NCBI GenBank assembly: GCA_014860455.1
Contig: JACZJQ010000329.1
Coordinates: forward strand, 1 to 44,761
From: Bryobacteraceae bacterium
Lineage (GTDB): Bacteria; Acidobacteriota; Terriglobia; Bryobacterales; Bryobacteraceae
Direction of reading: 5' to 3'
Length of the DNA: 44,761 nucleotides
This document shows, in pieces, positions 1,184 to 44,761 of this stretch. The notes below the pieces were generated by a model, which worked only from the letters and a program-made list of their open reading frames with translations, had not been told where the DNA came from and did not search any database. Each line of letters starts with the position of its first letter. The stretch's first letter is position 1. Position numbers and translations under genes: made by a program.

Positions 1184-1345
1184 ATGGCCGGTTGGACGAT
1201 TCTGTATGCACTCATCGCTGCCACAGGGAGCGCTCTCCCTTTGACTGGCATTCAGTCAGTCGTAGCTCAGGCAGCAAGTCTTCTGTTTACTCTCCTATTC
1301 ATGATTTCTGTACTAACCCGGCTGATTCGGGCTCGTGCCCGCTAA
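1184..1345 (+). CDS. DUF1328-like small membrane protein
   Basis: A 53-codon gene begins at ATG 1184, seven bases after a perfect AGGAGG (1171-1176). The product starts MAGWTILYALIAATGSALPL and has two hydrophobic segments separated by a short turn, ending in a basic tail (RLIRARAR). The W-hydrophobic start, the central TGIQSVVAQAA stretch and the second helix match the layout of the DUF1328 (YtjA) family of roughly 55-residue inner-membrane proteins, which often accompany stress genes. It overlaps or abuts the glucan synthase gene, so the two are probably cotranscribed and translationally coupled. It is also the first gene downstream of the tandem palindromes. Confidence 0.7.
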   Translation: MAGWTILYALIAATGSALPLTGIQSVVAQAASLLFTLLFMISVLTRLIRARAR

Positions 1346-1367
1346 ACTCTGCCGGACGAACGCCAAC

Positions 1368-28633: not shown

Positions 28634-30561
<1,928 letters not shown>

Positions 30562-30569
<8 letters not shown>

Positions 30570-30900
30570 CGATCTTCCAAAAGGGCCATCCAAACGGAAA
30601 CCGGCTCTCGGTCAGCAGGTCGGCGCGAAGGCGGCGCGCAAACTCCGCGCGCAGCGCCATGTCACGAGAACCGTCTGGTTCGGCTTGGGCATGATGGGAC
30701 TGATTGGCTGGTCAGTGGCGATCCCCACGGTGCTCGGCGCGGCGCTGGGTATCTGGCTGGACCGGCACTATCCGGGAGGCCGCTCCTGGACGCTGGCCCT
30801 GCTGGTCGCGGGCCTGGCGATCGGGTGTTGGAATGCATGGCATTGGGTTTCGAAGGAGGACAAGGCCATCCAGGAGGAACAGGAGGACGGGGATGAATGA
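30562..30900 (+). CDS. atpQ: N-ATPase AtpQ (AtpI-like membrane protein)
   Basis: A 112-residue protein with a basic N-terminus and two transmembrane helices (about residues 39-62 and 70-95: MGLIGWSVAIPTVLGAALGI, then WTLALLVAGLAIGCWNAWHW). This is the ATP synthase gene 1/AtpI-type partner found only in N-ATPase operons at this position. By analogy with AtpI it probably helps assemble the c-ring or carries Mg2+ or other ions. It overlaps atpC and atpR by eight bases each. Confidence 0.88.
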
Positions 30901-31207
30901 AAACGTAACTCTGGTGCTGCTGGGCGGCGCGGGTGTTCTACTTGGGTTGTTCTTTTTCGGCGGCCTTTGGTGGACGGTGCGGAGGGGCCTTGCTTCGAAA
31001 AGGCCGGCGCTTTGGTTTATAGGTAGCCTGCTACTGCGCACCAGCATCGTCGTTGCCGGGATTTATCTAGTCTCGGGCGGCCGTTGGGATGGGCTGCTGG
31101 CGTGTCTTGCAGGGTTCTTCAGCGCGCGCCTCATCGTGACGCGGCTTGCCAGCCCGCCGGTCGGACATCACAACTCTCCAGTCAAGGAGCCGTCTCATGC
31201 ACCTTAG
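30893..31207 (+). CDS. atpR: N-ATPase AtpR membrane protein
   Basis: A 104-residue protein with three hydrophobic segments (LVLLGGAGVLLGLFFFGGLW, FIGSLLLRTSIVVAGIYLVS, and a third around residues 70-85). AtpR is the second N-ATPase-specific membrane protein and, with a conserved Arg in the middle helix (SLLLRTS), is thought to interact with the c-ring. ATG 30893 follows AGGAGG and overlaps the atpQ stop. An in-frame start far upstream would run through atpQ and was rejected. Its 3' end overlaps atpB by 11 bases. Confidence 0.87.
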   Translation: MNENVTLVLLGGAGVLLGLFFFGGLWWTVRRGLASKRPALWFIGSLLLRTSIVVAGIYLVSGGRWDGLLACLAGFFSARLIVTRLASPPVGHHNSPVKEPSHAP

Positions 31208-31892
31208 CCCCGACGAAATCATCTTCTGGCAGTATGGCCTTTTCAAGCTCAACGCCACGATTGTCTTCACGTGGGCTCTGATGCTCGTGCTGGCACTGGG
31301 CGCGAAACTGATAACCCGCAACATTTCCATCGGCCTGGAACGCGAACGCTGGCAGAATCTTCTCGAAATCATCGTCATCGCCATCGAGAAGCAAATCGAA
31401 GAGGTCGGCCTCAGTCACCCCGGAAGATATCTCGGATTCCTTGCCACGCTCTTCCTTTTCCTGGCGGCGGCCGCCATCTGCACCGTCATTCCCGGCTACC
31501 AGCCTCCGACTGGCTCCCTCTCGACGACGACGGCGCTGGCGCTATGCGTGTTTGCGGCCGTGACGTTCTTCGGCATCGAGGAACGGGGCCTGGGCAACTA
31601 TCTGAAGTCCTATGCGCAGCCGACCCCCATCATGTTGCCGTTCAATATCATCAGCGAAGTCTCCCGCACGCTGGCCCTGGCCGTCCGCCTGTTTGGCAAC
31701 ATGATGAGCGGAGCGATGATCATCGGTATCTTGCTCACCATCACGCCCCTATTCTTCCCGGTAATCATGTCGGCGCTTGGGCTTCTCACCGGCATGGTGC
31801 AGGCCTACATCTTCTTCATTCTGGCCACGGTGTACATTGCGGCCGCGACGCGTGTCGGCAAACCTGAGTCGGAATCTGAGTACAACGAGTGA
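31197..31892 (+). CDS. atpB: N-ATPase Fo subunit a
   Basis: A 231-residue ion-channel stator subunit with five or six transmembrane helices. The essential Arg lies in LALAVRLFGNMMSG, and the TPLFFPVIMSALGLLTGMVQ and YIFFILATVYIAAA helices follow. It forms the half-channels through which ions reach the c-ring. ATG 31197 has AAGGAG upstream and overlaps atpR by 11 bases. The longer frame from 31146 lies inside atpR and is less likely. Confidence 0.94.
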   Translation: MHLSPDEIIFWQYGLFKLNATIVFTWALMLVLALGAKLITRNISIGLERERWQNLLEIIVIAIEKQIEEVGLSHPGRYLGFLATLFLFLAAAAICTVIPGYQPPTGSLSTTTALALCVFAAVTFFGIEERGLGNYLKSYAQPTPIMLPFNIISEVSRTLALAVRLFGNMMSGAMIIGILLTITPLFFPVIMSALGLLTGMVQAYIFFILATVYIAAATRVGKPESESEYNE

Positions 31893-31923
31893 AACAACAA
31901 CACGAGGAACCAAGGAAGACACT

Positions 31924-32205
31924 ATGGATAATATGACGATCATCGCGGTTGCATCGATTGTCACCGCCGGCATTACCACCGGTTTTGGCACGATGGCCCC
32001 GGCACTGGGCGAAGGGAAGGCCGTGGCGACGGCACTGACTTCTTTAGCCCAGCAGCCCGACGCCTCCGCCACCATCACCCGGACTCTATTCGTCGGCCTG
32101 GCAATGATCGAGTCCACGGCTATCTACTGTTTCGTGGTTTCGATGATTCTCATCTTCGCCAATCCGTTCTGGAACCACGTCATCGCCCAGACCGCGGGAA
32201 AGTAA
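31924..32205 (+). CDS. atpE: N-ATPase Fo subunit c with sodium-type ligands
   Basis: A 93-residue proteolipid with two transmembrane helices and the loop AQQPDAS. Helix 1 has PALGEG with E30, and helix 2 has the string IESTAIY (E63, S64, T65, Y68), the set that coordinates Na+ in Ilyobacter-type rings. Two carboxylates in one subunit are typical of N-ATPases. Sodium translocation is thus likely, but whether Na+ or H+ is moved in the cell must be measured. ATG 31924 follows AAGGAAG. The longer frame from 31777 lies inside atpB. Confidence 0.95.
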   Translation: MDNMTIIAVASIVTAGITTGFGTMAPALGEGKAVATALTSLAQQPDASATITRTLFVGLAMIESTAIYCFVVSMILIFANPFWNHVIAQTAGK

Positions 32206-32208
32206 CCC

Positions 32209-33021
32209 ATGCTTATCGACTGGTTCACCGTCGGTGCGCAGGTGGTCAACTTCCTCATCCTGGTGTGGTTGCTGAAGCGCTTTCTCTACAAGCCCATCCT
32301 CGATGCCATTGACGCGCGGGAGAAACGGATCGCCGAAGAACTCGCGGACGCCGGGGCCAAACAGAACGAGGCCCGGGAACAGCGCGACGAATTCCAGAAA
32401 AAGAACGAGGAGTTCGACAAGCAGCGCGACAAGCTCCTGAACAAGGCCAAGGACGAGGCCGCAGCCGAACGGCAGCGCATTCTTGAGGAAGCGCGGCGGG
32501 CGGCCGGCGACCTGCGCGCCAGGCAAAAGGACGCGTTGAAGCGGGAACAAATGAGCCTGTATGACGAGATCGGGCGCCGAACCCGGGAGGAAGTATTTGC
32601 CATCGCTCGAAAGACGCTGACTGACCTCGCCGGGACGAGTCTGGAAGAACGCATGAGCGAGGCATTCACGTGCCGCTTGCGAGAACTGAACGAGGAGGCG
32701 AAGGGGGAGTTCACCAAAGCCCTGAGCACATCGCCGGACGCAGCCCTCGTCCGCAGCGCCTTCGAACTGCCGCCGGCGCAACAAACCGCTATACGACATG
32801 CCCTCAACGAGATCTTCACGGATGAAGTCCGAGTCCGTTTCGAGACTGCGCCGGACGTGATCAGCGGCATCGAACTGACCGCGAACGGGCGAAAGGTCGC
32901 CTGGAGCATCGCGGATTATCTCGCGTCCCTGAATGAGAGCATCGGCGAACTACTGGAAGAACACTCCAAGCCGGAGCCCCAGTCCGGGAACAAACGTGCC
33001 GCTCCAGCGGAGGCTAAGTGA
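32209..33021 (+). CDS. atpF: N-ATPase subunit b with delta-like C-terminal extension
   Basis: A 270-residue protein, much longer than the usual 160. An N-terminal membrane helix ([20 protein letters not shown]) leads to a long coiled coil (about 40-165). The C-terminal 100 residues ([20 protein letters not shown], then [20 protein letters not shown]) resemble the C-terminal part of subunit delta. N-ATPase operons lack atpH, so this extension probably supplies the peripheral-stalk function. The stop overlaps atpA by four bases (GTGA). Confidence 0.92.
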
Positions 33022-34547
33022 GCGCGCCGCCCAATTCCGCCCAAAATGCCCTTGATCGTGCATTCGCTGGCCTTAGGCAGGGGCGCGAGGCCTTCACGCC
33101 TCAACTGACGCCGCGTGAGGTGGGCACGATTGCCAATGTCTCCACAGGCATCGCCCTGGTCTCCGGTCTTCCGGGCGTCGGTTCTGACGAGCTGGTGAAA
33201 TTCCGCGGCGATGTCTTCGGCATCGCATTCAACGTGGACGAAGACGAGATCGGCGTCGTGCTACTCGGCGAATACTGGCATTTGCACGCGGGCGATGAAG
33301 TCGAGCGCACGGGCCGGGTCATGGATGTGGCAGTGGGCGACGGATTGCTGGGACGGGTGATCGACCCGCTCGGCCGGCCCCTCGATGGCAACGGGCCGGT
33401 AGCCTCCAGCGGGCGCCTGCCCATCGAGCGCCCCGCCGCGCCCATCATGGACCGCGCGCCGGTCACTGTGCCGCTCCAAACCGGTCTTAAAGTCATTGAC
33501 GCACTCATTCCAATTGGACGCGGCCAGCGCGAGTTGATCCTCGGCGACCGGCAGACGGGCAAGACCGCGATTGCGATCGACACCATCCTGAATCAACGCG
33601 GCAGGGATGTCCTGTGCGTCTATTGCGCAGTTGGCCAGCGGGCCTCCGCCATCGCGAAGGCCGTAGCCACACTCCGGGAGAAGGCCGCGATGGATTACAC
33701 CGTGGTGGTTGTCACCGAGGGCAACGACCCGCCGGGCCTCGCCTACATTGCCCCATACGCCGCCACCAGCATTGCTGAGCATTTCATGGAGCAGGGCCGT
33801 GATGTGCTGATCGTTTATGACGATCTTACTCATCATGCCCGCGCCTATCGCGAGCTTTCTCTGTTGTTGCGCCGGCCGCCCGGACGCGAAGCGTTCCCTG
33901 GCGATATTTTCTATATCCACTCGCGGCTGCTGGAGCGCGCAACACACTTACGCAAGGAACTCGGCGGCGGATCGCTCACCGCGCTGCCCATCATTGAAAC
34001 TGAGGCACAGAACATCTCAGCCTACATCCCGACCAACCTGATTTCCATTACGGATGGCCAGGTCTACCTCTCGCCGTCGTTGTTCCAGTTGGGAGTGCTG
34101 CCGGCGGTCGACGTCGGTAAGTCAGTGTCGCGCGTTGGCGGAAAAGCGCAGCGGGCAGCCTATCGGTCTGTCGCGGGTGACCTTAAACTCGCCTACTCGC
34201 AATTTGAAGAGCTTGAGACATTTGCCAGGTTCGGCGCCCGCCTGGACGAGGATAACCGCAAGGTCATCGAGCATGGGTTACGTATCCGGGCCTGCCTCAA
34301 ACAGCCGGAGTTCTCCCCGGTACCCGTGTCTGCTCAAATCGCCGTCCTTCTGGCCTTGACCGCCGAACTCTTCAGCGACGTGCCGATTGACCGAATGACG
34401 GATGCCGAGCAGGCCGTCCGCAAGGCGGCGGCAGACATCCCCGCGCAAGTGTGCGAGCGATTGGATAGCGCCGACAGGTTGAGCGATGAGGACCGCGAAA
34501 CGATCATCGGGATCGCTCGCAAGGCGATCCAAGAGTTCACGTCATGA
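33018..34547 (+). CDS. atpA: N-ATPase F1 subunit alpha
   Basis: A 509-residue alpha subunit with GTG start overlapping the atpF stop. Walker A is GDRQTGKT, and the arginine-finger segment is [12 protein letters not shown]. The [21 protein letters not shown]-terminal beta-barrel is typical of the family. It forms the alpha3beta3 head with AtpD. It overlaps atpG by four bases (ATGA). There is no sign of damage. Confidence 0.96.
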
Positions 34548-35458
34548 GCAACACAACCGCAGGCCTGCGTCGCAAGATCGACAGCGCTGGGAATCTTCAA
34601 TCCGTGGTCGGCGCCATGAAGGCCCTGGCCGCTTCGAGTATCGGCCAGTACGAGCAATCGGTGCGCGCGCTGGGCGACTACTATGGCACGGTGCAACTGG
34701 GGTTGGGCGTTTGTTTCCGGGTTCCCGGTTCAGCGGCGTTGATGACTGGTGAGATAGGGCAAAGAGATGCGGGTGCGATCAGCGCGGTCGTATTTGGTTC
34801 CGACCAGGGATTGGTGGGCCAGTTTAATGATGTAGTGGCAGGTCATGCGGTTAAGGCCCTGGGAGAATTGACTGACACACCGCGCATCTGGGCGGTTGGC
34901 GAACGCGTTCATGCGCGCTTGAAGGACGCGGGCCTGCCGCTGGCCGGCCTCTTCACTGTGCCAAATTCTGTAAAGGCCGTCACCCCGCTCGTCGGCCAAA
35001 TCCTAGTGGAAAGCGAGGCGCACCGCAGCCAAGGCGAGGTTGTCGAACTTCATCTTTTCTACAACCGCTCAAGATCCGGAGCGGCTTATGAGCCCGTGAG
35101 TGAGCGACTGCTGCCGTTGGACAAGACCTGGTGGCGCGAGATCGCCGCGCTTCCCTGGCCGGCGAAGAACTTGCCCGAAGTTATGGGCGGCGACACAGAA
35201 ACATCGCGGGCGCTCGTCCGCGAGTATCTCTTCGTTTCGCTCTTCAGGGCGTGCGCCGAGTCCCTAGCGAGTGAGAACGTGAGCCGCTTGGCGGCGATGC
35301 AGCGCGCCGACAAGAACATCGACGAACTCCTGGAGGATCTCAACGGGACATACCATCGTCTGCGCCAGAGTGGCATCGACGAGGAGTTGTTCGATGTGAT
35401 CGCCGGCTTCGAGGCGTTAGCAAAGGGAGCAATCCCTGCCGGGCGGGGATTCACTTAA
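34544..35458 (+). CDS. atpG: N-ATPase F1 subunit gamma
   Basis: A 304-residue gamma-like rotor subunit. N-terminal ([20 protein letters not shown]) and C-terminal ([20 protein letters not shown], then [20 protein letters not shown]) helices form the central-stalk coiled coil, and the middle is the alpha/beta domain ([13 protein letters not shown]). Sequence in the middle is divergent, as usual for N-type gamma. It ends the operon. No terminator hairpin was recognised in the 173 bases before the next gene. Confidence 0.93.
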
Positions 35459-35631
35459 AGGAGAGACACCCAGTGATCAGCGACTCCGAATCCGCCGGAT
35501 CGGAGCGCCAGTGGGACGTTGCGATCCGCAATAATCGCATCGGACTTGAGAACCAACAGCATACGAGGCAGTCAGCTCGAAGGTTAAGGCCAGGATGAGG
35601 TCGCCCGCCGACGCGATAGAATCACGGTTAC

Positions 35632-35886
35632 TCACCGCAACTCCGTGACCCCCTCGCCAGCCAGCATCGAACGGATCTTCGCCTTCACGGCAATCACCGG
35701 AACGAACCTCGGCTTGGCGAGCAGATCCAGAATGAGCCTTCCCTGCTCCACGGCACAACCGACCCTGTAGCCGTCCTTCTGCAGGACTCCAGTGTCCCCA
35801 GCCAGGTTGAATGCAGCCTCGGCGAGTCTCGCCCGTGCAACTCCAATCTGGGCTGGCGGCACGGCAAACTTCATTCGATCAGCCAT
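35632..35886 (-). CDS. Small hypothetical protein of the mobile island
   Basis: An 84-residue protein. ATG 35886 has GGAGGGGGAGA directly upstream, so it is preferred over the upstream in-frame codon at 36045. It begins MADRMKFAVPPAQIGVARAR and ends in VIAVKAKIRSMLAGEG with an alternating hydrophobic pattern and no membrane helix. It overlaps the M15 peptidase gene by eight bases, so the two are probably translated together. No family was recognised; its place suggests a lysis or lysis-control role. Confidence 0.6.
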   Translation of the reverse strand: MADRMKFAVPPAQIGVARARLAEAAFNLAGDTGVLQKDGYRVGCAVEQGRLILDLLAKPRFVPVIAVKAKIRSMLAGEGVTELR

Positions 35887-36286
35887 TCTCCCCCTCCTGA
35901 AACGGGTCCGCCGCGACCGCCGCACGGCCGTTGAGGTATATCCAGCGCACCGGTGCAGCCGCCTCCCGCACGTCGACGTGGATGTAGCCGGCGGCGTGGT
36001 CCACTCCGATGCCTTTGATCCGCGGCGCTGCCCGGACGACTTCATAGAAGGCGCGCAGTGGCATCGCTATCGGGACCAGGTCCGCCGCGGGGCCCTGTGC
36101 GTGATAGCCGGGCTTCGTTTTGCGCGCTTCGACCGGATGCTGCGGACAGCGGTAGGCCGAGTTCACCTTGAGCGGGCCGGCCTTCGCGCGCAGCGCCTCC
36201 AGCACATCGAGCAGTTCCCGTCGGACACCCTCGCGGCCGCAGTGCCGGCAGCGGAGTTCCGCCGATTTGAAGTGTTCCAATTCCAT
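35879..36286 (-). CDS. M15-type D,D-carboxypeptidase/endolysin-like peptidase
   Basis: A 135-residue protein resembling the peptidase M15A family, which hydrolyses peptidoglycan peptide bonds and serves as endolysin in many phages. Candidate Zn ligands are visible: YHAQGPAADL (H62, D69) and YIHVDV (H103, D105). A CRHC pair (C13, C16) near the start may bind a second metal. No signal peptide is present, so release would depend on a holin or passive escape. It overlaps the downstream 84-residue gene by eight bases. Confidence 0.8.
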   Translation of the reverse strand: MELEHFKSAELRCRHCGREGVRRELLDVLEALRAKAGPLKVNSAYRCPQHPVEARKTKPGYHAQGPAADLVPIAMPLRAFYEVVRAAPRIKGIGVDHAAGYIHVDVREAAAPVRWIYLNGRAAVAADPFQEGENG

Positions 36287-36289
36287 GGA

Positions 36290-36439
36290 TCAGACTCCGC
36301 CTTCCGGCGCAACCACCGACACCGGCAGCACGAAAGCATGCCGCTTCATCTCCTGGATCTCAGCCTGCAGGGCCTGGATCCGGACCATCCGCTCCGCCAC
36401 GCCTTTCGGGTCCGGGTCCGGGAATACGACCAGCAGCAA
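36290..36439 (-). CDS. Possible 49-residue small protein upstream of the endolysin
   Basis: A frame opening after a stop at 36455-36457 gives up to 49 residues from TTG 36439, ending in TGA 36290-36292, three bases before the peptidase start. Its C-terminal part (RIQALQAEIQEMKRHAFVLP) reads as a short coiled coil, preceded by a hydrophobic patch (LLLVVFPDPDPK). GTG and ATG codons inside (ATG 36388) are alternative starts. The tight spacing to the peptidase suggests a shared operon. A membrane or lysis-helper role is speculation. Confidence 0.3.
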   Translation of the reverse strand: MLLVVFPDPDPKGVAERMVRIQALQAEIQEMKRHAFVLPVSVVAPEGGV

Positions 36440-36808
36440 CTGTATGGTCTTGGCCTAGGTTCAACACCGCCATGGTTAATCTGCTGTTGTGAATCAGGCT
36501 GCCGCTGCCAATCCGGCAGTGTGTGCCCACCCCGGGCCAGAGGAGGATTGTTGCACAACAGGAATTCATGCGTGGCGCATCGGCCGGAGCGGCGGTGACC
36601 ACCGAACCGACGACCTGGAGAGTCGCTGGTAGGTTGTCGGGGTGACTACCCATGGAGTTTCCATGGAAAGCATTGCATGGAAAGGACTAAGCCTCACGCG
36701 GTTTCTTGGTGACCACCTTGTTGCTGGTCTATCTGTAGCGAAATCGTGGGGTGGGGAGACCCTCGATCAAAAAGGGCCAGGAAGGACCCATTTTCTTCCA
36801 CAGCGGGC
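36440..36808. other. Intergenic stretch in the island
   Basis: No convincing gene in about 370 bases. A minus-strand frame of 97 codons (36360-36653) lacks domains and start signal. A dyad, CCATGG-N5-CCATGG, occurs at 36650-36666. The base composition is slightly lower in GC than the flanks by eye. Confidence 0.4.
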
Positions 36809-37165
36809 TCACTTGAGGGATTCGCATGTTGCTGCAACCGAGTCCGCCTCTGGGCGACAGTCGCAGGCAATCTTCACCAAGGCAACCGCGACCTCCTCAG
36901 CCTTCCAGGCGGGCACGCGCCGGATCACGGCCGACTGCTCGTTGATTACGACTGAACGGCGGCCCTGAGGATCGAACTCCGCAAACACGGCAAACACCGC
37001 TGCCACTGCCGCCCGATCGGCCGTCACGGTTTGGACTTTGGAGCCTACGTGAGGGACTGGCCATTCTGCGCCAAGTCCCTCGGCCTGCAGTCCGGATGCT
37101 CCGGGGAGGACTTCGGCAAAAGTTTTCCGAAGTTCGCGACCGATATGTGATCCGATGGTCGTCAC
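36809..37165 (-). CDS. Hypothetical protein sharing a C-terminal domain with its neighbour
   Basis: A 118-residue protein. GTG 37165 follows AGGAG at five bases. The C-terminal half (FDPQGRRSVVINEQSAVIRR, then VPAWKAEEVAVALVKIA) is nearly identical to the C-terminal region of the 281-residue gene at 37226-38071, both in protein and in DNA. The rest (MTTIGSHIGRELRKTFAEVL) is unrelated to that gene. No family was recognised. A partial gene duplication within the island is the simplest reading. Confidence 0.6.
   Translation of the reverse strand: MTTIGSHIGRELRKTFAEVLPGASGLQAEGLGAEWPVPHVGSKVQTVTADRAAVAAVFAVFAEFDPQGRRSVVINEQSAVIRRVPAWKAEEVAVALVKIACDCRPEADSVAATCESLK
36866..37010. repeat. Direct repeat copy 1 (about 145 bp)
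   Basis: This segment is highly similar to 37370-37514, offset 504 bp. The first 43 bases (36866-36908 against 37370-37412) are identical, and the remainder matches at roughly 80 percent by eye. It lies inside two minus-strand genes in the same frame, so it encodes the shared ARP-WKAEEVAVALVKIA block. It reflects a recent duplication of part of a gene. Confidence 0.8.
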
Positions 37166-37225
37166 AGCGACTCCTGGTATGCCTGCCAGGCTGGCCGATC
37201 CTTCCAAACGATGGGCGGCACGCGG

Positions 37226-38071
37226 TCATTCGCCCGTCACTGTGTTGGCCGGACAAGCATCTTGGCTTCGATCATCGGCCACTTCAAGTCCTGCCCTGGG
37301 CCAATCAACCACTGGGACGCTGTCATGGGGCGCATCAGCTGCGGTAATCGTTCGGCTGCGGCAGCCGTCGGCAATCTTCACCAAGGCAACCGCGACCTCC
37401 TCAGCCTTCCAGACGGGCACGCGCCGGATCACCGCAGACTGCCCGTTCATGACGACCGAACGCCGACCCTCGGGATCGTACTCCTCAAACACGGCAAGCA
37501 ACGCTGCCACTGCCACCCGGGTCAGGCGGCATCCGGCCGGCCCCATGTCCAGGATCACCTGGGCTGTGGAGCGTGCACGTAGCACTACCACTTTTGGCCG
37601 CCGCTCGGCCCAGCACTCGCGGCTGTGCACCATGATCCGCTGTCGCGCCGTGGTCTCGATCACTGCGTATCCCTTTTCTCGCCAGCGGTCCCGGACCAAC
37701 CACTTTCGGCCGAGCTGCCGTCGTTGCACCTGTTCCCAACGGCACAGAGGATGGGAGGGCTTTACACGGAAACACCAGTTCAGTTCGCTCGCATCCACCG
37801 GATCAAACCCTGCCGCCAACATGGCGCCCTTGAACGCGCCGTTGTAGATGTAGAAGCCATCCGGCTCCCTCTCGAAGTCGTGCTTCATGCCGTAGCTGGT
37901 GCGCCGGAACACCGTCTTCGCCGGCGCGAGCACAGCGCGAATCCAATCGACCAAGGCGGACTGTTCCTGAGGCGTAAGCCGTTGGAAAGCCGCGGGATCA
38001 TTGGCAGCCCAATCCATCTCCGCCAATTCATCGCGCTGCCCGCTCGCCTTGTAGATCGCGTAGTAATCCAT
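37226..38071 (-). CDS. Hypothetical island protein with repeat-shared C-terminus
   Basis: A 281-residue protein starting at ATG 38071, with GGAGGTGA nine or ten bases upstream. The N-terminal two thirds (LTPQEQSALVDWIRAVLAPA, RTSYGMKHDFEREPDGFYIY) look like a conserved phage/ICE domain, though I do not recognise it. Residues about 185-245 (GRRSVVMNGQSAVIRRVPVW) are shared with the gene at 36809-37165. No membrane segment. It lies in the minus-strand run of the island. Confidence 0.7.
   Translation of the reverse strand: MDYYAIYKASGQRDELAEMDWAANDPAAFQRLTPQEQSALVDWIRAVLAPAKTVFRRTSYGMKHDFEREPDGFYIYNGAFKGAMLAAGFDPVDASELNWCFRVKPSHPLCRWEQVQRRQLGRKWLVRDRWREKGYAVIETTARQRIMVHSRECWAERRPKVVVLRARSTAQVILDMGPAGCRLTRVAVAALLAVFEEYDPEGRRSVVMNGQSAVIRRVPVWKAEEVAVALVKIADGCRSRTITAADAPHDSVPVVDWPRAGLEVADDRSQDACPANTVTGE
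37370..37514. repeat. Direct repeat copy 2 (about 145 bp)
   Basis: Partner of 36866-37010, offset by 504 bp with a perfect 43-bp core (37370-37412). It lies inside the 281-residue gene, which is probably the donor because its domain is embedded in a longer intact protein, while the smaller gene has only the tail. Confidence 0.8.
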
Positions 38072-38169
38072 ACTCAGTTCACCTCCAAATCGTTGTCGCC
38101 CGCCGCGCCGCCGTCAAAATAGTTGTTCCGACCGAGCCAGCAGTTCACCCACGCGAGGCCACGCCCCCG

Positions 38170-38655
38170 CTAGGTGTAGAACTGAACATCCTCCATCTCA
38201 CAGCGCACGACCTGGACCAGGTGGTCGATGCGGATTGCGTCATCCAGGATGCGAACCGGCAGATACCTGCGCAGGCTAGTGATGTCCAAGAAACGGTGGA
38301 TGGCAGGTTGGGACGGACCCAGTAGCCGTGCGCAGGTGATGTGGTCGTCGATCGTCAGTAGTCGGAAGGGGCCGCGAGCAGGAGTGGCCGGCTGGACCGG
38401 AATTGCTGCCAGCCACTCGGAGCCACGTCCGGCATCGCTGGGGAGAGTGCGGGCTTCCACTTCTCGCATCCCGACCAGGATCCTCTCGATCGCCTTGTGG
38501 ATGCGCTTCACGTTGGTGTGAAGCCTATCGGGCACCCCCAGGGCGCTGCGCGTGATGTTGTCAAACTCGGCTACCGAACGGTGAACCGCGGTCCACTCGC
38601 GCGCGGCGGCGCGGTGGTCGTCGATGGTCATGATGGTTAAGTGTCGTCTGCTCAT
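38170..38655 (-). CDS. Hypothetical protein of the mobile island
   Basis: A 161-residue soluble protein, MSRRHLTIMTIDDHRAAARE at the N-terminus, with helical and charged character and two TIDDH motifs (about residues 9-14 and 100-105) that suggest internal duplication. ATG 38655 overlaps the upstream gene's stop (ATGA), so they are co-translated. No family was recognised. Confidence 0.65.
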   Translation of the reverse strand: MSRRHLTIMTIDDHRAAAREWTAVHRSVAEFDNITRSALGVPDRLHTNVKRIHKAIERILVGMREVEARTLPSDAGRGSEWLAAIPVQPATPARGPFRLLTIDDHITCARLLGPSQPAIHRFLDITSLRRYLPVRILDDAIRIDHLVQVVRCEMEDVQFYT

Positions 38656-39377
38656 AGTGATCCTTGCTCCAATGGTGGTTTTGTGGGTTTTGTCGGTTCG
38701 GGTTTGGCGCTTACCGCCAGAATTGAATCCTGGCGCTGCTGCTGCCGCTCACCTTGTAGAACCGTTGCTGCTGTAATCCGTCCTGGCTGCCCAGTGACCC
38801 CTTGCTGGTGAAAGAGCCGGTTCAACTCGGCCGCCTTCCACTGCGCCCATGAAGAGGTCTCGGCGCCCCACCCCATCTCCTGGAGCATGCGGTCCCGGAC
38901 CTTCCACGGCTCCTTCGGCTCCCGTTGCATTTCCGCCAACACATGCGTGGGAACGGCTTCGCCCTCGACGAGCCGCAGTTTGTAGCGTGCAGGCACATCG
39001 GCGCCGTCCAAGTAGCGCACCGGAGGCCCGTGCTTGCCGAGCGTTTGCAGGGCCTTCCGGATCACCGGGCCGTCCAGGTCGCTCCAAATGCCGATGGCGC
39101 GAACGTCATCGAAGTGAATCATGCGGACGCCGGCCTGGTTGAGCACGGCGGAGGCGTGGGCCACGTCGGCCGGATCCGGCTCGACGGGGGTAGTTGGAGG
39201 TTCGTCCGCAGTGGCGCTGACAAAACCCCCAGCAGCAGGGGCTGCCGCGGCTGGGATGCTTGCCGCGGAATCCGCCGCAGGCTGAACTGCGGGTTGCCAG
39301 TCGCGCCACCGGCCGCGCTTTGCGGGGCTGGACGGCCCGATGGTGGCGCTCGTAGCAGGAGAGCTTCTCGTATTCAT
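38652..39377 (-). CDS. Hypothetical protein with Ala/Pro-rich N-terminus
   Basis: A 241-residue protein. Residues 1-70 are Ala/Pro/Ser-rich and probably disordered. A globular region follows with ADVAHASAVLNQAGVRMIHF and AIGIWSDLDGPVIRKALQTL, which looks like a winged-helix or replication-accessory fold. The tail contains PTKPTKPP, which is a translation of the 9-bp TTTTGTCGG repeats seen in the intergenic region. It lies just downstream of the repeat array and primase gene, in the same direction. No known family was recognised. Confidence 0.65.
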   Translation of the reverse strand: MNTRSSPATSATIGPSSPAKRGRWRDWQPAVQPAADSAASIPAAAAPAAGGFVSATADEPPTTPVEPDPADVAHASAVLNQAGVRMIHFDDVRAIGIWSDLDGPVIRKALQTLGKHGPPVRYLDGADVPARYKLRLVEGEAVPTHVLAEMQREPKEPWKVRDRMLQEMGWGAETSSWAQWKAAELNRLFHQQGVTGQPGRITAATVLQGERQQQRQDSILAVSAKPEPTKPTKPPLEQGSL

Positions 39378-39518
39378 CGTGTTTCCTTGTATCGAAGCCG
39401 GCCAGGAGGTGTCGGCAGGGTTTTGGCGGTTTTGTCAGTTAGCGGTGACGAAATCTCACGACCGTGACTCTGCCCGGAAGTGATAGATTCTATTGGTCTG
39501 TGTTCGTGGCGCCGGGGA

Positions 39519-39545
39519 TTTTGTCAGTTTTGTCGGTTTTGTCAG
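39519..39545 (+). repeat. Three 9-bp TTTTGTCRG direct repeats (array 1)
   Basis: TTTTGTCAG, TTTTGTCGG, TTTTGTCAG in tandem without spacers. The 27 bases are the exact reverse complement of 39715-39741, so the two arrays form a perfect inverted repeat around 169 bp. Two further copies lie at 39421-39438. Confidence 0.85.
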
Positions 39546-39714
39546 CGGGGCGCGTGTCGTGCTCGGGCCAAGGGAGGCGAAAGAACAATGAGAAGACAAG
39601 AAGAAAAGGCGAAGATAAGTCTGAAGAAGATCTTATTATGACAATTGTTCTCCTCTCTCCCACACGTGGTCTTCCGCCCAAGGGGCACCGCACGCACTTC
39701 CGGATGCGCCCCTA

Positions 39715-39741
39715 CTGACAAAACCGACAAAACTGACAAAA
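39715..39741 (-). repeat. Three 9-bp TTTTGTCRG repeats, inverted (array 2)
   Basis: CTGACAAAA, CCGACAAAA, CTGACAAAA in tandem: exact reverse complement of 39519-39545. Two more reverse copies follow at 39858-39875, preceded by a small GTCAGT/ACTGAC hairpin. The repeats lie beside a primase-helicase gene and resemble iterons in size, although their sequence is not a DnaA box. Confidence 0.85.
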
Positions 39742-39944
39742 CCTCTGCAGCCTGGTTTCGGGCAGGGTCGTGATGTGCATCCAGCCTTTTGTTTTCATTG
39801 GGGTACCAGACAGCCATCAAGTTCGCGCACTCGCTCGAGGTCTTGTCAGTGCCAACTGACAAAACTGACAAAACCTCCCGCATGGGCGCATCTGCCGGAT
39901 TTGTCGGTGCCCCGGCTGGCATCCACATCACCCGCTGAGCCGCG

Positions 39945-42446
39945 TCACTCACGACACACCGCCGGATTGACGTCGAATCGTTCCGCGGGGCGCCCACCTT
40001 TCCCCCGAGACGCGCCCGTCGCCCTCCGCACCCACCCGGCGTCCTCCAACTGCCCGATGGCAGTTCGCGCCGACTCTGGGGTGTCGAGGCCCTCCCAGCC
40101 GTTGCGGTAGACGTCACGCACCGTGAACTGCACGCCGAGCGCCCCGGCGCGGATCTTTTCACCGAGGCTGGCCACGGCCATCCGGGAGTGGCTCGCCACA
40201 CAGGCGTAGGCGCGCCGCGCGTGCGACTCCAGATAAGTGCACCAATCCGCGGCGCGTTGCGCCTGGAGCAGCGGGATCTCCGGTCGGGTGTCGCCGTCGG
40301 CCAGGTGCAGGATCACCGCCAGCGAGGGCATCAGACTCCGATACTTAGCCAGGTGCGATTCCATCGCCGGCGACAGACTGCCGGCGCGAAGCCGCACCTC
40401 GAGTTCCTTCCGCCAGGCGCTGAATAACTCTTGCCCCTCGGCTGAGAACCGGAACCGCAGCGGGTCAGCCGGGGAGATATTCACGATGGATTCCATTACG
40501 GCATCCACCGACTGCTCGGCGCGAATGTCGGGCACGCGGTCGATGTCCTCCCAAGCCGGCGAGGTGTCCGGCCATACCAGCACCTGGAGCCGTTGCGCGA
40601 GGCCATCATCGTTGGCGCCGCCGGATACGGCGTCGAGCAGATACGCCTGTAGTTTCGCCGGTTGCAGTCCACCAAACAGCGAGATGCAGAGGTTTTCCAC
40701 GCGCACCGAACCGCGGCCGATGCGGTCGATGGTGTATCCGCCATCTCCGTTCCAGGCTTCCAGGAAAAAGGGCCGCTCGCGCTCCCGCCCCTCGGAATCA
40801 AGCGTTGCGAGCCAGCCCACCAACTCATCACGCAGATAGAGGATGCCCTGCGGGTTCTCTTCCAGAATGGCGTGCAGTTTCTCGATGGTGGCGTCGTTGA
40901 TGATGAAGCGCTCTTGAGGCGGGCGCTCGGGCGACTCTTCCTCGAAACGGTCGAATGATCCGCCTTTCTTGGCCGACTGCGTGGCCCGCGCCTTCCACGC
41001 ACTCTTGCGGATTTCGTGCGCGGCCACATCCCGCTCGTACTCCTCCATCGCAGCTTTGTGAAGCTCGATGGCTGCGGCTTCCATTTTGCGCAAAGGCCGC
41101 AGCACCGTCCGGATGCACGGGCTCTTCATCAACCCCGGGCGCCCCACGATCCCGCCCCACAGGTTCGGCACCACCTCCCAATCGTCAAATCGCTTGGGCC
41201 GGATGCGGGCACGCCGTCCGATGACGCCCGCCAATTCCACGATGGCGGTGGCAGCGGGGAAGTCGACCGGGATCTGGAGGCGCTCCGCGATGTCGCTTAC
41301 CCAGGCTCGCAGCGCCTCGGGCAACAACTCCGGATCGAAGCGGTCGACCTCGGGCAGCGAACCGAGGATCGGTTCGGGCTCTGGCCAGTCATCACCGGCT
41401 TCGACACTGCTGCCATCTGACACGCCCCATCGCTGGCGGAGCGACTCGAGAAGCTCTGGCGTGAGCGCTGCCGTTTCTTCGAGCATCCGCTCCAACTGCG
41501 CCGGTGTGCCGCCTGCCTCCACCCAGTCGGTGATGTCGCCCTTCTCGGCGACTGACAGTTCCACCACGCGAACCGAGGCCGCGACTGGCAGCAATGCCTC
41601 CGCCACGCGTAAGGCATGGCGATGCCCTGGCTTGTCGTTGTCGGGGAGGATGATGCAGTGGCGCGCGCGGAAGTGCGGCGTGTACTCAGGCCGCCATCCC
41701 GCGCCGGCGCCACCTGGATTACAGGATGCCGTCAGGCACCAACTCTCCAGCGTGTGGACGTCCTTCTCACCCTCGACGAGAAACACTTCGCCGGCCGTCA
41801 GGACCTTTGGCAACCGGTAAGGAACCCGCGGGCAATCGCGGAATTCAAAATGATATCCGTCGAGAGAGTGCCGGGTGGGCACGAAGACGGTTCTGCCTGC
41901 ACGTTCGGACTTCTTCCTATCGGGAAGGTACATGCCCGCATCGAGGCCGAGAACAATGCCGTCTGTCGGTACGCCATCCAGATAGCCCGGATCGGTTGTG
42001 CCCGCTTCTTCAACACCGCTGGGCCGGCACTGCACAAAAGTCTTCTTCCCGTCGGGCTTCAGATACCGGATCACTTCAAATAGCAGGACGCCCTCGGCGG
42101 TCTCATAAGGGTAGCGGGCAATCTCTTGCCACTGGGCGGACGGCTTGGGGGGCGTGCTACGAGGAGCCTTGACGGGCAGCGGCCGCCCGACAATCCCGAA
42201 CACGGCGTCGCGAGCCGCGCGGAATTCGGCGCCGCTGATCTCCATTTCCAGGTCGTAAACAGACCCGCCTTGGTTGCACTGGCTGTGGCAGTACCACTCG
42301 CCGGTGTCGGCCTTGACGGAGAAGTTCGGGTCTTTCCCGCTATGGAGGGGACAAGCATAGCGCCACTCCGGCCCACGCTGCTTCAAGTTTGGAAAGCGGA
42401 CTGCGTAGTACTGCGCGACTTCGCAGGAGGTCAGCGGATCGTACAC
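39945..42446 (-). CDS. Primase-helicase with CHC2 zinc finger, Toprim and DUF3987 domains
   Basis: An 833-residue replication protein. The N-terminus has a CHC2-type zinc finger (YACPLHSGKDPNFSVKADTG, then C53 and C57). A Toprim domain follows with VEGEKD (224-229) and DNDKPG (269-274). A DUF3987 helicase-like ATPase domain spans about 380-720 with the Walker A variant GRPGLMKSP (435-443). A winged-helix tail (WEGLDTPESARTAIGQLEDA) completes it. Such proteins prime and unwind phage or ICE DNA. GTG 42446 has AGGAG upstream and overlaps the excisionase-like gene. It lies leftward of the 9-bp repeats, its probable template. Confidence 0.88.
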   Translation of the reverse strand: MYDPLTSCEVAQYYAVRFPNLKQRGPEWRYACPLHSGKDPNFSVKADTGEWYCHSQCNQGGSVYDLEMEISGAEFRAARDAVFGIVGRPLPVKAPRSTPPKPSAQWQEIARYPYETAEGVLLFEVIRYLKPDGKKTFVQCRPSGVEEAGTTDPGYLDGVPTDGIVLGLDAGMYLPDRKKSERAGRTVFVPTRHSLDGYHFEFRDCPRVPYRLPKVLTAGEVFLVEGEKDVHTLESWCLTASCNPGGAGAGWRPEYTPHFRARHCIILPDNDKPGHRHALRVAEALLPVAASVRVVELSVAEKGDITDWVEAGGTPAQLERMLEETAALTPELLESLRQRWGVSDGSSVEAGDDWPEPEPILGSLPEVDRFDPELLPEALRAWVSDIAERLQIPVDFPAATAIVELAGVIGRRARIRPKRFDDWEVVPNLWGGIVGRPGLMKSPCIRTVLRPLRKMEAAAIELHKAAMEEYERDVAAHEIRKSAWKARATQSAKKGGSFDRFEEESPERPPQERFIINDATIEKLHAILEENPQGILYLRDELVGWLATLDSEGRERERPFFLEAWNGDGGYTIDRIGRGSVRVENLCISLFGGLQPAKLQAYLLDAVSGGANDDGLAQRLQVLVWPDTSPAWEDIDRVPDIRAEQSVDAVMESIVNISPADPLRFRFSAEGQELFSAWRKELEVRLRAGSLSPAMESHLAKYRSLMPSLAVILHLADGDTRPEIPLLQAQRAADWCTYLESHARRAYACVASHSRMAVASLGEKIRAGALGVQFTVRDVYRNGWEGLDTPESARTAIGQLEDAGWVRRATGASRGKGGRPAERFDVNPAVCRE

Positions 42447-42667
42447 GGCAGTTCTCCTTCAGGTACTGCGGAGCCAGCCGGGCGGGTATGCGTCTCGATC
42501 CATTGCTCCAAGGCCCCGCGTGGCACACGGACCACCCGGCCTGCGGGCGCACGCAGCGAGGGGAGGGTGCCGTCCTGCATCCAGCGGTAGGCCAGGGCGC
42601 GGGAGATGTTCAGGATGGCAGCAACCTCAGGGGCACTCAACAGCAGCTTGTCTTTCGGGGTCTCCAT
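42431..42667 (-). CDS. Excisionase-like MerR/HTH_17 DNA-binding protein
   Basis: A 78-residue protein with a winged HTH (LLSAPEVAAILNISRALAYR, then WMQDGTLPSLRAPAGR and RVVRVPRGALEQWIE). Small helix-turn-helix proteins of this kind act as excisionases or as regulators of the early operon. It overlaps the primase start by 16 bases and is divergent from 42772. Direct ATAAGA repeats lie immediately upstream of its start (42690-42705). Confidence 0.8.
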   Translation of the reverse strand: METPKDKLLLSAPEVAAILNISRALAYRWMQDGTLPSLRAPAGRVVRVPRGALEQWIETHTRPAGSAVPEGELPCTIR

Positions 42668-42689
42668 GCCCTATAGCGCGACTCACCTG

Positions 42690-42705
42690 ATAAGAGTTCA
42701 TAAGA
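42690..42705. promoter_or_regulatory. ATAAGA direct repeat (possible operator)
   Basis: ATAAGA occurs twice, ten bases apart (42690-42695, 42700-42705), one DNA turn, in the divergent region between the excisionase-like gene and the 348-residue gene. This spacing suits a small HTH dimer. A possible minus-strand promoter, TTGTAC with TCTTAT 18 bases on, overlaps it. Confidence 0.35.
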
Positions 42706-42734
42706 TGAGAACGGTACAATATCGTCATCTACCC

Positions 42735-42763
42735 TGGATTCCATCCCGTCCACGCAGTATAAT
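42735..42763 (+). promoter_or_regulatory. Possible leaderless sigma-70 promoter
   Basis: A perfect TATAAT lies at 42758-42763, but the -35 region is poor (TGGATT at 42735-42740, 17-bp spacing). Transcription would start near 42770, only one or two bases before ATG 42772, so the mRNA would be leaderless. No ribosome binding site is visible before that ATG, which supports the idea. Confidence 0.45.
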
Positions 42764-42771
42764 ATTTCCAG

Positions 42772-43818
42772 ATGTCCAGACGCCGTTTTGCCGACCGCAC
42801 CGCTGCCGATCTGGCCTGGCAGCCGCCCTGCGATGTCACGCCACCCGACCTGACACGCGTTGCCATCAACGCCTGTCTGGACGTCCCGCTCTCGGAAGGC
42901 GAGTGGAACCTGCTGGAGACCCAGGGCTGGAAGGCCGATATCCGGAACCACCGCCGCACTCCGGGACAGGCCGCCGTGATGGTCGAGCAGTGGCGCGAGG
43001 CAGTCGCCGGGCCCGTCCGCCGTGCGCGCGACCACAGCCTGCCTGCATCCTTGCGGGCCGAGGCTGTCGCCCACCTCGTCGCGGTCGAGGCCCGCAAGAC
43101 CGATCCGGTGATCGAATTCCGCACCCGCATCCTCCGCGGCAAGCTTCTGCAGCCAGAGCAGGTCGAGCGCTGGCTTGGCGTCCTCGCGCGCCGCCAGGAG
43201 GCAAAGCCATGGGCGAAGGTTTACGTGTCTGCCGAGGAGGCCGAGGTGGGCGTTGTTCCCATTGGCGTCAGCAACCTGGTCGAGCGCGGCTTCGACACAC
43301 TCGACTATCTCGTGCCGGGCTCGGACCGTGTCCACCACATTCTGGTCTCGACAAAAGGCATCTTAGGGTGGCTACGGTGGCTTTCGGCATGGCTCTGTCA
43401 GCAGTACCGGTGGGAATCCGCCCACGCCACCACGTTCATCCTCACGGACGAGGCGCCGCCGATTCCCGAGACCCACTACGAGGTCGATAGCCGGCGCGCC
43501 TTTCCCGCGCTCACCCGCGTGATGATGACGATCGATCCCACCATGAGTCCGCGCGAGGTGGCGAACCTCTACCGCCAGATCCGCTTCCAGCACTTCGGCC
43601 GCCGCCACCGCTCGATGACGCCCAAGCATGTCGAGTTGGCGAAGTTCTGGTCCACTCATGCCCAGACCACCACGTGGAAGGAACTGATGGCCGAATGGAA
43701 CAGACAGCACCGGCGCTGGGCCTACAAACGGGAGCAGAACTTCGCCCGCGATTGCGCTCAGGCTCGCGAGCGACTGTTGGGGCAGAACCTTGTAAGCGAT
43801 ACAGGGCAGGCGCACTGA
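42772..43818 (+). CDS. Hypothetical island protein
   Basis: A 348-residue soluble protein starting at ATG 42772 (MSRRRFADRTAADLAWQPPC). Central segments (VSNLVERGFDTLDYLVPGSD, ILVSTKGILGWLRWLSAWLC) are mixed alpha/beta. The C-terminal part (MTPKHVELAKFWSTHAQTTT, then WKELMAEWNRQHRRWAYKRE) looks like an HTH. No family was recognised. It overlaps the next gene by one base (TGATG) and is divergent from the replication operon, so it may control or serve it. Confidence 0.7.
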   Translation: MSRRRFADRTAADLAWQPPCDVTPPDLTRVAINACLDVPLSEGEWNLLETQGWKADIRNHRRTPGQAAVMVEQWREAVAGPVRRARDHSLPASLRAEAVAHLVAVEARKTDPVIEFRTRILRGKLLQPEQVERWLGVLARRQEAKPWAKVYVSAEEAEVGVVPIGVSNLVERGFDTLDYLVPGSDRVHHILVSTKGILGWLRWLSAWLCQQYRWESAHATTFILTDEAPPIPETHYEVDSRRAFPALTRVMMTIDPTMSPREVANLYRQIRFQHFGRRHRSMTPKHVELAKFWSTHAQTTTWKELMAEWNRQHRRWAYKREQNFARDCAQARERLLGQNLVSDTGQAH

Positions 43819-44507
43819 TGGATGAACCGCCACCGTCGCTGCGGTTTCAGCGATACCAGTTCTCCCACCGGGCCGGGCGCTGGCGCAAGCGCAGTTACCG
43901 GAGCGCACTGCGTGTCGAGAAGCCGAAGACGGAGCAGGACTGCCACAGGTTGCTTCCGGAACTGGCTCGGCGTATGTACCGACCGAACGGCTCGGTCGAC
44001 CTGGAAGACCTGATGCAAATCGGAGAATTGAAGCTCGCCGAAGGACTGAATCGGTTGAAGCGGCGCGCCATCCACCCGGGGCCGGCTGCACTGAAGTCGC
44101 TGATGGAATCGGCACAATCGGCCATGTTCCACGCGATCGACCAGCAGGTGGTGGGCTTGGAGTCTGGCGGGGATACAGAGGACTACATCACCGAAACGCT
44201 GCCCGGCGCTTCCTGCAACGTTACCGTCATCCGCCGTGGCAGTGGATGGGACCTCGCTCCCGGCGTGACCGCCTCCTGGGGTAGTCCGCTGCCACCGGGA
44301 TCGTGCCAGCCGCGGCCAACTCCGCTTTGTGGCTCGCCGGGTCACTTGCCCCTGAGCAGCGCGGTGAACGATGGGAGCCGCCGGCTGAGGCGGCCGGCGG
44401 TGATGAAGGATGCGGATTGTCATCCGCAGTCGTGTTGGGGTTGGCCGTCGGGGATCCAGCCGTACTGGAGCCAGCCGTCGTCATCGGGTCCGATGAAGCC
44501 GAAGTAG
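43818..44507 (+). CDS. Sigma-70 region 2-like protein
   Basis: A 229-residue protein. Residues about 40-110 (LLPELARRMYRPNGSVDLED, LMQIGELKLAEGLNRLKRRA, then ALKSLMESAQSAMFHAIDQQ) resemble the DLxQxGxLxLxxAxxxF core-binding block of sigma-70 region 2. No region 4 DNA-binding domain is visible. After about residue 125 the sequence becomes low-complexity (Pro/Ser/Gly/Arg-rich) and converges on the gene at 44420-44734, overlapping it by 88 bases. The tail may therefore be spurious and the true gene shorter or frameshifted. Confidence 0.55.
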   Translation: MDEPPPSLRFQRYQFSHRAGRWRKRSYRSALRVEKPKTEQDCHRLLPELARRMYRPNGSVDLEDLMQIGELKLAEGLNRLKRRAIHPGPAALKSLMESAQSAMFHAIDQQVVGLESGGDTEDYITETLPGASCNVTVIRRGSGWDLAPGVTASWGSPLPPGSCQPRPTPLCGSPGHLPLSSAVNDGSRRLRRPAVMKDADCHPQSCWGWPSGIQPYWSQPSSSGPMKPK

Positions 44508-44734
44508 CAGCCGGGGAAGGCGTCCGAGAGCCAGAGGTAAGCCTCGTCGATGGCTTCATCTTCGAGATCCCGGCGACGCAGTTCCTGGAAGATGTCGGAC
44601 TTGGTGCGGATGACCTTATTCACCACGGTGCCCAGAGCGCCTGGGAACCGATCCGTCCGCGAGGGATGGATCCGGAAGGCGACTCCGGGCTGGGTGTAGG
44701 CGTAGTTGCGGGCGTGGCGGACTGGGCGCGTCAT
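44420..44734 (-). CDS. Hypothetical protein of the mobile island
   Basis: A 104-residue protein starting at ATG 44734 (AGAGG about 10-12 bases upstream). It has no membrane segment; aromatic and acidic clusters in the C-terminal half (AIDEAYLWLSDAFPGCYFGF, then IGPDDDGWLQYGWI) suggest a compact fold. No family was recognised. It converges on the sigma-like gene and overlaps its 3' end. Confidence 0.6.
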   Translation of the reverse strand: MTRPVRHARNYAYTQPGVAFRIHPSRTDRFPGALGTVVNKVIRTKSDIFQELRRRDLEDEAIDEAYLWLSDAFPGCYFGFIGPDDDGWLQYGWIPDGQPQHDCG

Positions 44735-44761
44735 GTGCGGATGCCTCTTAGCTGATCTGGT

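Follow-up and report, generated by a model that had tools for sequence, protein, structure and literature searches.

Inverted arrays of a 9-bp repeat beside a DUF3987 primase-helicase gene: a probable iteron-type replication origin in a mobile-element module of a Bryobacteraceae bacterium

In a 44,761-base stretch of a Bryobacteraceae genome (GenBank assembly GCA_014860455.1, contig JACZJQ010000329.1; the whole stretch is called the window here), copies of the 9-bp sequence TTTTGTCRG form short arrays in both orientations next to a gene for a primase-helicase, which raises the question of whether these arrays are a replication origin and, if so, which protein reads them. We consider it probable (roughly 0.75) that they are the iteron origin of a mobile-element module, with the 833-residue product of the adjacent gene as initiator, acting by the mechanism proposed below.

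The arrays and their setting

The window left of approximately 35.5 kb looks like host chromosome, with an N-ATPase operon including AtpR (28658–35458), an adjoining phosphoketolase gene (26237–28633) and others, among them a gene (1335–10259) whose 2974-residue product has matches to glycoside hydrolase 94, to glucoamylase and, below the cut-off, to glycosyltransferase. In the right part an excisionase/AlpA-like gene is followed, leftward, by the gene for the 833-residue protein, the arrays, and ORFs of 241, 161 and 281 residues (Table 1). The 833-residue protein matches Pfam DUF3987 (PF13148) at 5.9e-85, with 286 bits against a curated cut-off of 27, and Zn_ribbon_DnaG at 4.1e-9; it also contains a primase-like stretch and matches PHROG primase/helicase families. 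We read the phrog_66 match of the 78-residue protein as AlpA-like. The 241-residue gene is probably the next gene of the module; neither it nor the 161-residue ORF matches a named family in Pfam or PHROGs, and the 281-residue ORF matches the uncharacterised phage family phrog_9576. No integrase family was found among the island ORFs scanned in Pfam and PHROGs (the contig ends at 44761), no packaging gene in the part of the island within the contig, and no RepA/Rep_3-type Rep family in the Pfam scan of 10 ORFs, the other island ORFs having been scanned in PHROGs only.

The window contains 13 exact copies of TTTTGTCRG compared to 0.69 expected and a maximum of 3 among 100 shuffled sequences, where the original prediction, made from the sequence alone, had counted at least ten. 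Eleven of these fall in 38688–39873, leaving two strays at 6306 and 21985. The two three-unit arrays, predicted to be perfect and inverted, are so: both read AG/GG/AG, each along its own direction, and they are therefore exact 27-bp inverted repeats; a longer pair of 43-nt arms is 84% complementary. The predicted pair to their right is real and lies two bases to the left of its predicted position (39858–39875), whereas only one copy of the predicted left pair is exact. Two units with one mismatch (39841–39849 and 39899–39907) run opposite to the right pair. The nearest exact unit ends 71 bp from the end of the primase gene (39945), and the arrays extend to 39421. As predicted, the repeats also enter the 241-residue gene, whose translation ends ...PTKPTKPPLEQGSL and reads PTKPTKPP where the iterons encode it. 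The predicted AT-rich core is clear in the window, and its positions 39580–39639 (68% AT) are the most AT-rich 60 bp within 35500–44759.

Table 1. Features of the island part of the window that bear on the proposed origin
Feature	Coordinates	Strand	Basis or remark
Iteron pair at the 3' end of the 241-residue gene	38679–38696	+	first copy with one mismatch
241-residue gene beyond the arrays	38652–39377	-	no family match in Pfam or PHROGs
Lone iteron within the 241-residue gene	39217–39225	-	exact copy
Iteron pair	39421–39438	+	39430–39438 exact; 39421–39429 with one mismatch (TTTTGGCGG)
Three-unit iteron array	39519–39545	+	exact copies; exact inverted repeat of 39715–39741
Core between the inverted arrays	39546–39714		45% AT compared to 38.7% for the window; possible melting site
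Three-unit iteron array	39715–39741	-	exact copies
Iteron pair closest to the primase stop codon	39856–39873	-	exact copies
Gene for the 833-residue protein (DnaG-type primase part, DUF3987, C-terminal winged helix; proposed initiator)	39945–42446	-	Pfam, PHROG, model
C-terminal winged helix, last 100 residues, proposed iteron reader	39948–40247	-	alignment of relatives; model
DUF3987 domain, modelled as MCM-like AAA+ ATPase	40203–41276	-	PF13148 match; structure comparison
78-residue AlpA/excisionase-like DNA-binding protein, directly before the primase gene	42431–42667	-	phrog_66, excisionase and transcriptional regulator, 3.4e-10

Scattering of the arrays over the chromosome had been named as the observation that would tell against an origin. 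In the source genome (5,286,262 bases in 356 contigs, 95% complete) a pattern of two adjacent units gave five overlapping matches, all at this locus, and the two-unit array was absent from all 100 relatives searched; the arrays are therefore not a dispersed host repeat, which is ruled out for the two-unit arrays.

Recurrence of 9-bp arrays beside DUF3987 genes

The original prediction proposed a search for the same 9-mer near DUF3987 primases in other genomes, and such searches were positive both from genes to arrays and from arrays to genes, with controls. In the first direction, PF13148 loci were chosen from five groups blind to repeats and with seeds excluded, giving 120 loci (124 minus L187, L226, L259 and L294, the seed L177 lying outside the range), from which 10 without an ORF by our own profile and 12 with less than 300 bp after the stop codon or an ORF of under 350 codons were dropped; of the 98 usable loci three were redundant, leaving 95. 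In 54 of the 95 loci the 300 bp after the stop codon contained an exact 7-mer that recurs 9 bp further on, compared to 15, 5, 14 and 23 loci for lags of 8, 10, 11 and 18 bp, and such a lag-9 repeat was found in every group (2/3, 12/22, 12/24, 17/26 and 11/20). The same lag-9 repeat occurred in the 300 bp before the ORF at 5/76 loci, within its final 300 bp at 13/95 and 300–600 bp after it at 17/94. As a control, the region after the best PF00589 match per gammaproteobacterial genome contained the repeat in 0/30 cases; these ORFs (median 322 codons) are probably mostly chromosomal Xer recombinases, and because this made for a weak control we added mobile-type integrases of the same bacteria (PF13356, Arm-DNA-bind_3), which gave 5/30. 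The strand agreed with the search table in 29/30 cases in each control. The 54/95 loci compared to these low controls indicate that a 9-bp iteron array 3' of the gene is common in the DUF3987 family, while the 41/95 loci that have no exact lag-9 repeat within 300 bp after the stop codon indicate that it is not universal. The window is one clear case of this family array, and the recurrence of such arrays beside DUF3987 genes lends support to the predicted iteron-type origin. Among gammaproteobacterial D5_N replication proteins the gene was followed by a lag-9 repeat in 4/8 cases, which suggests that the 9-bp plan is common to other satellite-type initiators; at two loci (L343 and L344) 9-bp repeats with inverted copies lie 3' of D5-type replication genes.

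The second feature of the window, units in opposite orientation, was less constant. The reverse complement of the direct unit was present within 600 bp at 31/62 loci, compared to 4/62 for a reversed control. Opposite units were separated by gaps of 16 to 220 bp among 21 loci and by more than 1 kb in L143 (of which L155 and L161 are near copies), where about 1.2 kb, transposase-like by eye, lies between the first units and a three-unit array. As a general feature of relatives the AT-rich core did not hold: Wilcoxon tests gave 0.28 for the repeat-blind loci (21 of 102 eligible ORFs had inverted units) and 0.88 for the repeat-selected ones (11/28), some cores being just 21% AT, so that an AT-rich core as a family rule is unsupported. 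The gap rule of this test took a 101-bp gap for the window instead of the 169-bp core, and the window's own row is unusable.

These figures bear on the proposal that the inverted arrays form a folded stem-loop origin or RNA structure, with the sequence repetition secondary, as has been proposed for plasmid pRN1. Positions 39500–39760 do fold strongly as single-stranded DNA (z -8.15), and pRN1 requires a stem-loop of 100 nt downstream of its replication gene (PMC4234260). However, half of the loci with direct repeats (31/62) have no reverse complement within 600 bp, the distance between opposite units varies widely, and the direct 9-bp spacing is the commonest part of the arrangement, and we regard a structural origin of this type as improbable.

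In the direction from arrays to genes, a scan of viral sequences with the two-unit pattern yielded at least 120 stretches, of which 13 encode a tblastn relative of the 833-residue protein; in 12 of these 13 the tblastn match is followed by an array no more than 300 bp beyond its 3' end. The array falls partly within the 3' end of the open frame in L088 and L016, and in L122 an exact array lies inside the gene, ahead of the DUF3987 part. Our own profile found DUF3987-like ORFs in 21/121 viral stretches (among which L113 and L125 seem to be one stretch found twice) and in 14/38 genome stretches; seven of the 21 viral ORFs sit several kb from the array. A scan of viral contigs with a single protein found only seven loci, mostly through the N-terminal primase part, and was kept out of the counts, and phage records gave partial matches only. 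A scan for three units that ignored genes altogether found 38 stretches in 36 genomes of a collection of 84,980 species genomes. PF13148 was present in 19/36 of these genomes, compared to 24/396, 4/99, 25/289, 33/321 and 29/198 in the five group samples, which include their seeds. By our reading of the positions, a PF13148 match is no more than 3 kb away for 15 of the 38 arrays (13 of them 3' of the match, one inside it in L128 and one with copies on both sides in L136). Some of these 15 are near copies, and so are the Celeribacter and Psychrobacter loci within the genome set. The remaining 23/38 have no PF13148 match within 3 kb, and some of them lie in or beside unrelated genes.

Two further patterns were seen among the viral stretches. 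Fifty-six of the at least 120 two-unit stretches have a GC content under 42%, and many of the 26 low-GC sites inspected have a GTTTTGTCAGTTTTGTCAGG core in common, located away from long open frames; at seven low-GC loci a DUF3987-like ORF lies several kb from the array (in L029 only at 3.5e-6), and these arrays may be origins of this kind lying far from the gene. In L071, L032, L120 and L077 the arrays seem, by eye, to lie inside a small ORF that follows the primase gene and frequently has Trp-Leu near its start; a unit of 9 bp preserves its frame.

A 9-mer corresponds to three codons, and a slippage-prone coding repeat or chance repetition with no function would account for the three-unit arrays found in or beside unrelated genes and for the several arrays that lie within open frames. 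Against this stand the excess of copies in the window (13 compared to 0.69) with none in 100 relatives, the enrichment after DUF3987 genes (54/95 compared to 5/76, 5/30 and 0/30), and the maintenance of both unit orientations, which codons do not need; we give this explanation almost no credence. A coding repeat is rejected for the window, and retained for some of the other loci.

In some plasmids iteron-like arrays act as partition, packaging or incompatibility sites, and such a role rather than that of an origin would be in keeping with a weak terminase-small-subunit match of the 78-residue protein (phrog_57, 0.03), which ranks under its excisionase and HTH matches. No ParA/ParB and no further terminase match was found among the island ORFs scanned, however, and the association across genomes is with a helicase gene, which makes a partition, packaging or incompatibility site very improbable.

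The 833-residue protein and its repeat unit

The structure of residues 341–833 was modelled with a pLDDT of 94.3. Its best Foldseek matches are MCM helicases (E 1.3e-4, TM-scores 0.3–0.4), and each of the 50 matches listed by VIA-align for the DUF3987 part is either an MCM protein or a chain from a complex that contains MCM, at just 10–17% identity, the best being 6mii_B (Z 18.2, rmsd 3.5 over 269 residues). When solved structures were searched with a sequence profile, no MCM was listed at E values up to 0.1. MCM replicative helicases carry a C-terminal winged helix. The last 100 residues of the 833-residue protein were modelled (pLDDT 89.2) as helices followed late by two strands, in the order of a winged helix, so that the protein is predicted to resemble MCM both in its AAA+ fold and in this domain, while differing in carrying its own DnaG-type primase part. 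The best structural match of the winged-helix model is the winged helix of VanR (Z 8.5, rmsd 2.0 over 67 residues), a modest match on a scale where a Z under 8 may reflect simply a common arrangement, and Foldseek found nothing for it at E values of 0.001 or below. Structure 1ka8, which we take to be the winged helix of the P4 alpha protein, is not among the structure matches listed, which excludes nothing.

We propose that the C-terminal winged helix (residues 734–833) would bind the 9-bp units (the TTTTGTCAG array) directly after its own gene, and that the oppositely oriented arrays would thereby set two helicase assemblies face to face. The DUF3987 part, if it is the MCM-like AAA+ ATPase that the model predicts, would open and unwind the DNA, probably melting it at the AT-rich stretch noted above (39580–39639), and primers would be synthesised by the fused DnaG-type part.

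Across relatives the repeat unit changes along with the protein. Close relatives mostly have GACAAAA or GACAGAA units, and other lineages have CTGCTAAAA, CCCAAAATA, GCGACAAAA, ACTTTAGC and more. In 34 loci with a clear 9-bp unit (hits weaker than 1e-40 omitted, near copies such as L279 and L280, which share a unit, retained), likeness between units drops with distance between proteins, with a Mantel r of -0.51 for the DUF3987 part and -0.385 for the winged helix (0/2000 permutations in each case). Such a pattern would arise if a reader and its site changed in concert, and is also expected from joint inheritance of repeat and gene. In partial Mantel tests the winged helix gave -0.115 compared to -0.381 for the core, and it is thus unsupported as the better predictor of the unit.

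Individual replicons add to this picture. On the Bartonella plasmid pBT01, TTTTGAAGG replaces TTTTGTCGG beside a diverged relative. A Streptomyces plasmid has a separate primase/polymerase gene and its CTGACAGAA arrays still lie 3' of the YfjI gene, an indication that the array belongs with the DUF3987 protein whatever the type of primase. No 9-bp array was seen at E. coli K-12 yfjI or at its relatives in E. coli C11 and SF-173. Other replication genes are present in addition to DUF3987 on pBT01 (RepC), a Sulfitobacter plasmid (an initiator) and two Psychrobacter plasmids (RepM), so that DUF3987 is not established as the initiator on these plasmids. On a 10.7-kb Rhodovastum plasmid (L166), which encodes ParA and a capsid fusion gene and on which DUF3987 is the only gene annotated for replication, a long inverted repeat surrounds a pyrimidine-rich core at approximately 2430–2540, 3' of the DUF3987 gene.

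Replication origins often double as operators, and the repeats could instead be operator sites at which one of the island proteins, for instance the AlpA-like protein or the primase, controls the 241-residue gene and those beyond it. The arrays precede the next co-directed gene, a promoter-like match (39545–39518, minus strand; one found compared to 0.1 expected) overlaps one of them, and the AlpA of an E. coli phage-inducible chromosomal island (PICI) switches on its own promoter (PMC6092414). However, autoregulation would act upstream of DUF3987 ORFs, where lag-9 repeats are rare (5/76), and the unit tracks the DUF3987 protein even where the primase is of another type; we therefore think operators unlikely as the primary function of the arrays, and return to the iteron origin.

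Comparison with known origins and implications

RepA/Rep_3-type Rep proteins bind longer iterons of about 17–22 bp, compared to units of 9 bp in the window. Phage P4 alpha unites primase and helicase with a winged helix at the C-terminus that binds the origin (ori/crr), which has iterons, and is in these respects like the architecture proposed for the 833-residue protein; the P4 helicase is of the SF3 type and thus differs. Part of the P4 alpha architecture is described in PMC4234260, according to which pRN1 has an essential origin directly after the gene for a primase-helicase that ends in a winged helix. The placement and the predicted winged helix are alike, whereas pRN1 has a stem-loop where the window has iterons.

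The closest counterparts are the PICIs. In SaPIs and EcCICFT073 the origin lies directly 3' of rep, with two iteron sets flanking an AT-rich region; in plasmid tests of EcCICFT073, rep was required and deletion of ori cut the number of colonies (both from passages of PMC6092414). An origin after pri in Gram-negative PICIs is thus already in print (PMC6092414, PMC10111431, in the passages on replication). The window is like these in the placement 3' of the primase gene, the two iteron sets and the AT-rich middle. Taking the pri-rep of EcCICFT073, by its position, to be the gene before the capsid and head decoration genes, we found CTGTCTACC units at lag 9 after it, with inverted copies. This presumed pri-rep comprises D5_N, DUF5906 and Pox_D5 where the window protein has DUF3987, and the units differ; the tested E. 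coli CFT073 island thus appears to use a D5/DUF5906 protein. The island in the window has an excisionase/AlpA-like gene, and in its part within the contig neither an integrase nor a packaging gene was found. From its sequence, the locus is best filed as a PICI-type iteron origin that would be served by a DUF3987 protein, on a 9-bp plan that is frequent in the family.

The PICMI satellites of Vibrionaceae are, in the passages of PMC10803314 that concern them, alike in having AlpA and a primase sought with DUF3987 and DUF5906 profiles, both named in the prim search model, which leaves the match of PICMI115's own prim unspecified. Deletion of prim lowers the copy number of PICMI115, prim being needed for full copy number, and the authors consider its concatemers consistent with rolling-circle copying, which the proposed facing helicases do not require; these passages describe no origin (PMC10803314). 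DUF3987 itself was earlier predicted, not demonstrated, to be a novel helicase (PMC5862659, in the passages on this domain). The word 'iteron' is absent from both papers, and among the matches listed in our literature search no report links DUF3987/YfjI to 9-bp iteron arrays.

DUF3987 genes are present in about 4 to 15% of the sampled genomes of the five groups. It is a tentative extension of our results, to which we give somewhat less than even odds, that the DUF3987/YfjI proteins form a large bacterial family, so far uncharacterised, of initiator helicases that resemble MCM and read origins, each recognising its own 9-bp iteron through the C-terminal winged helix at an origin right after the gene and forming two facing assemblies that start copying, and that they would represent a mobile-element counterpart of MCM double-hexamer loading without a separate loader. 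The array layout is met again beside many DUF3987 relatives, whether bacterial, phage or plasmid, its repeats varying together with the enzyme, and it extends the PICI-type origin plan beyond D5/DUF5906 proteins. A rule for the position of the origin and the spacing of its units makes DUF3987 replicons findable, and makes the initiator testable with small constructs. It also suggests that MCM-like helicases may start replication in bacterial mobile elements.
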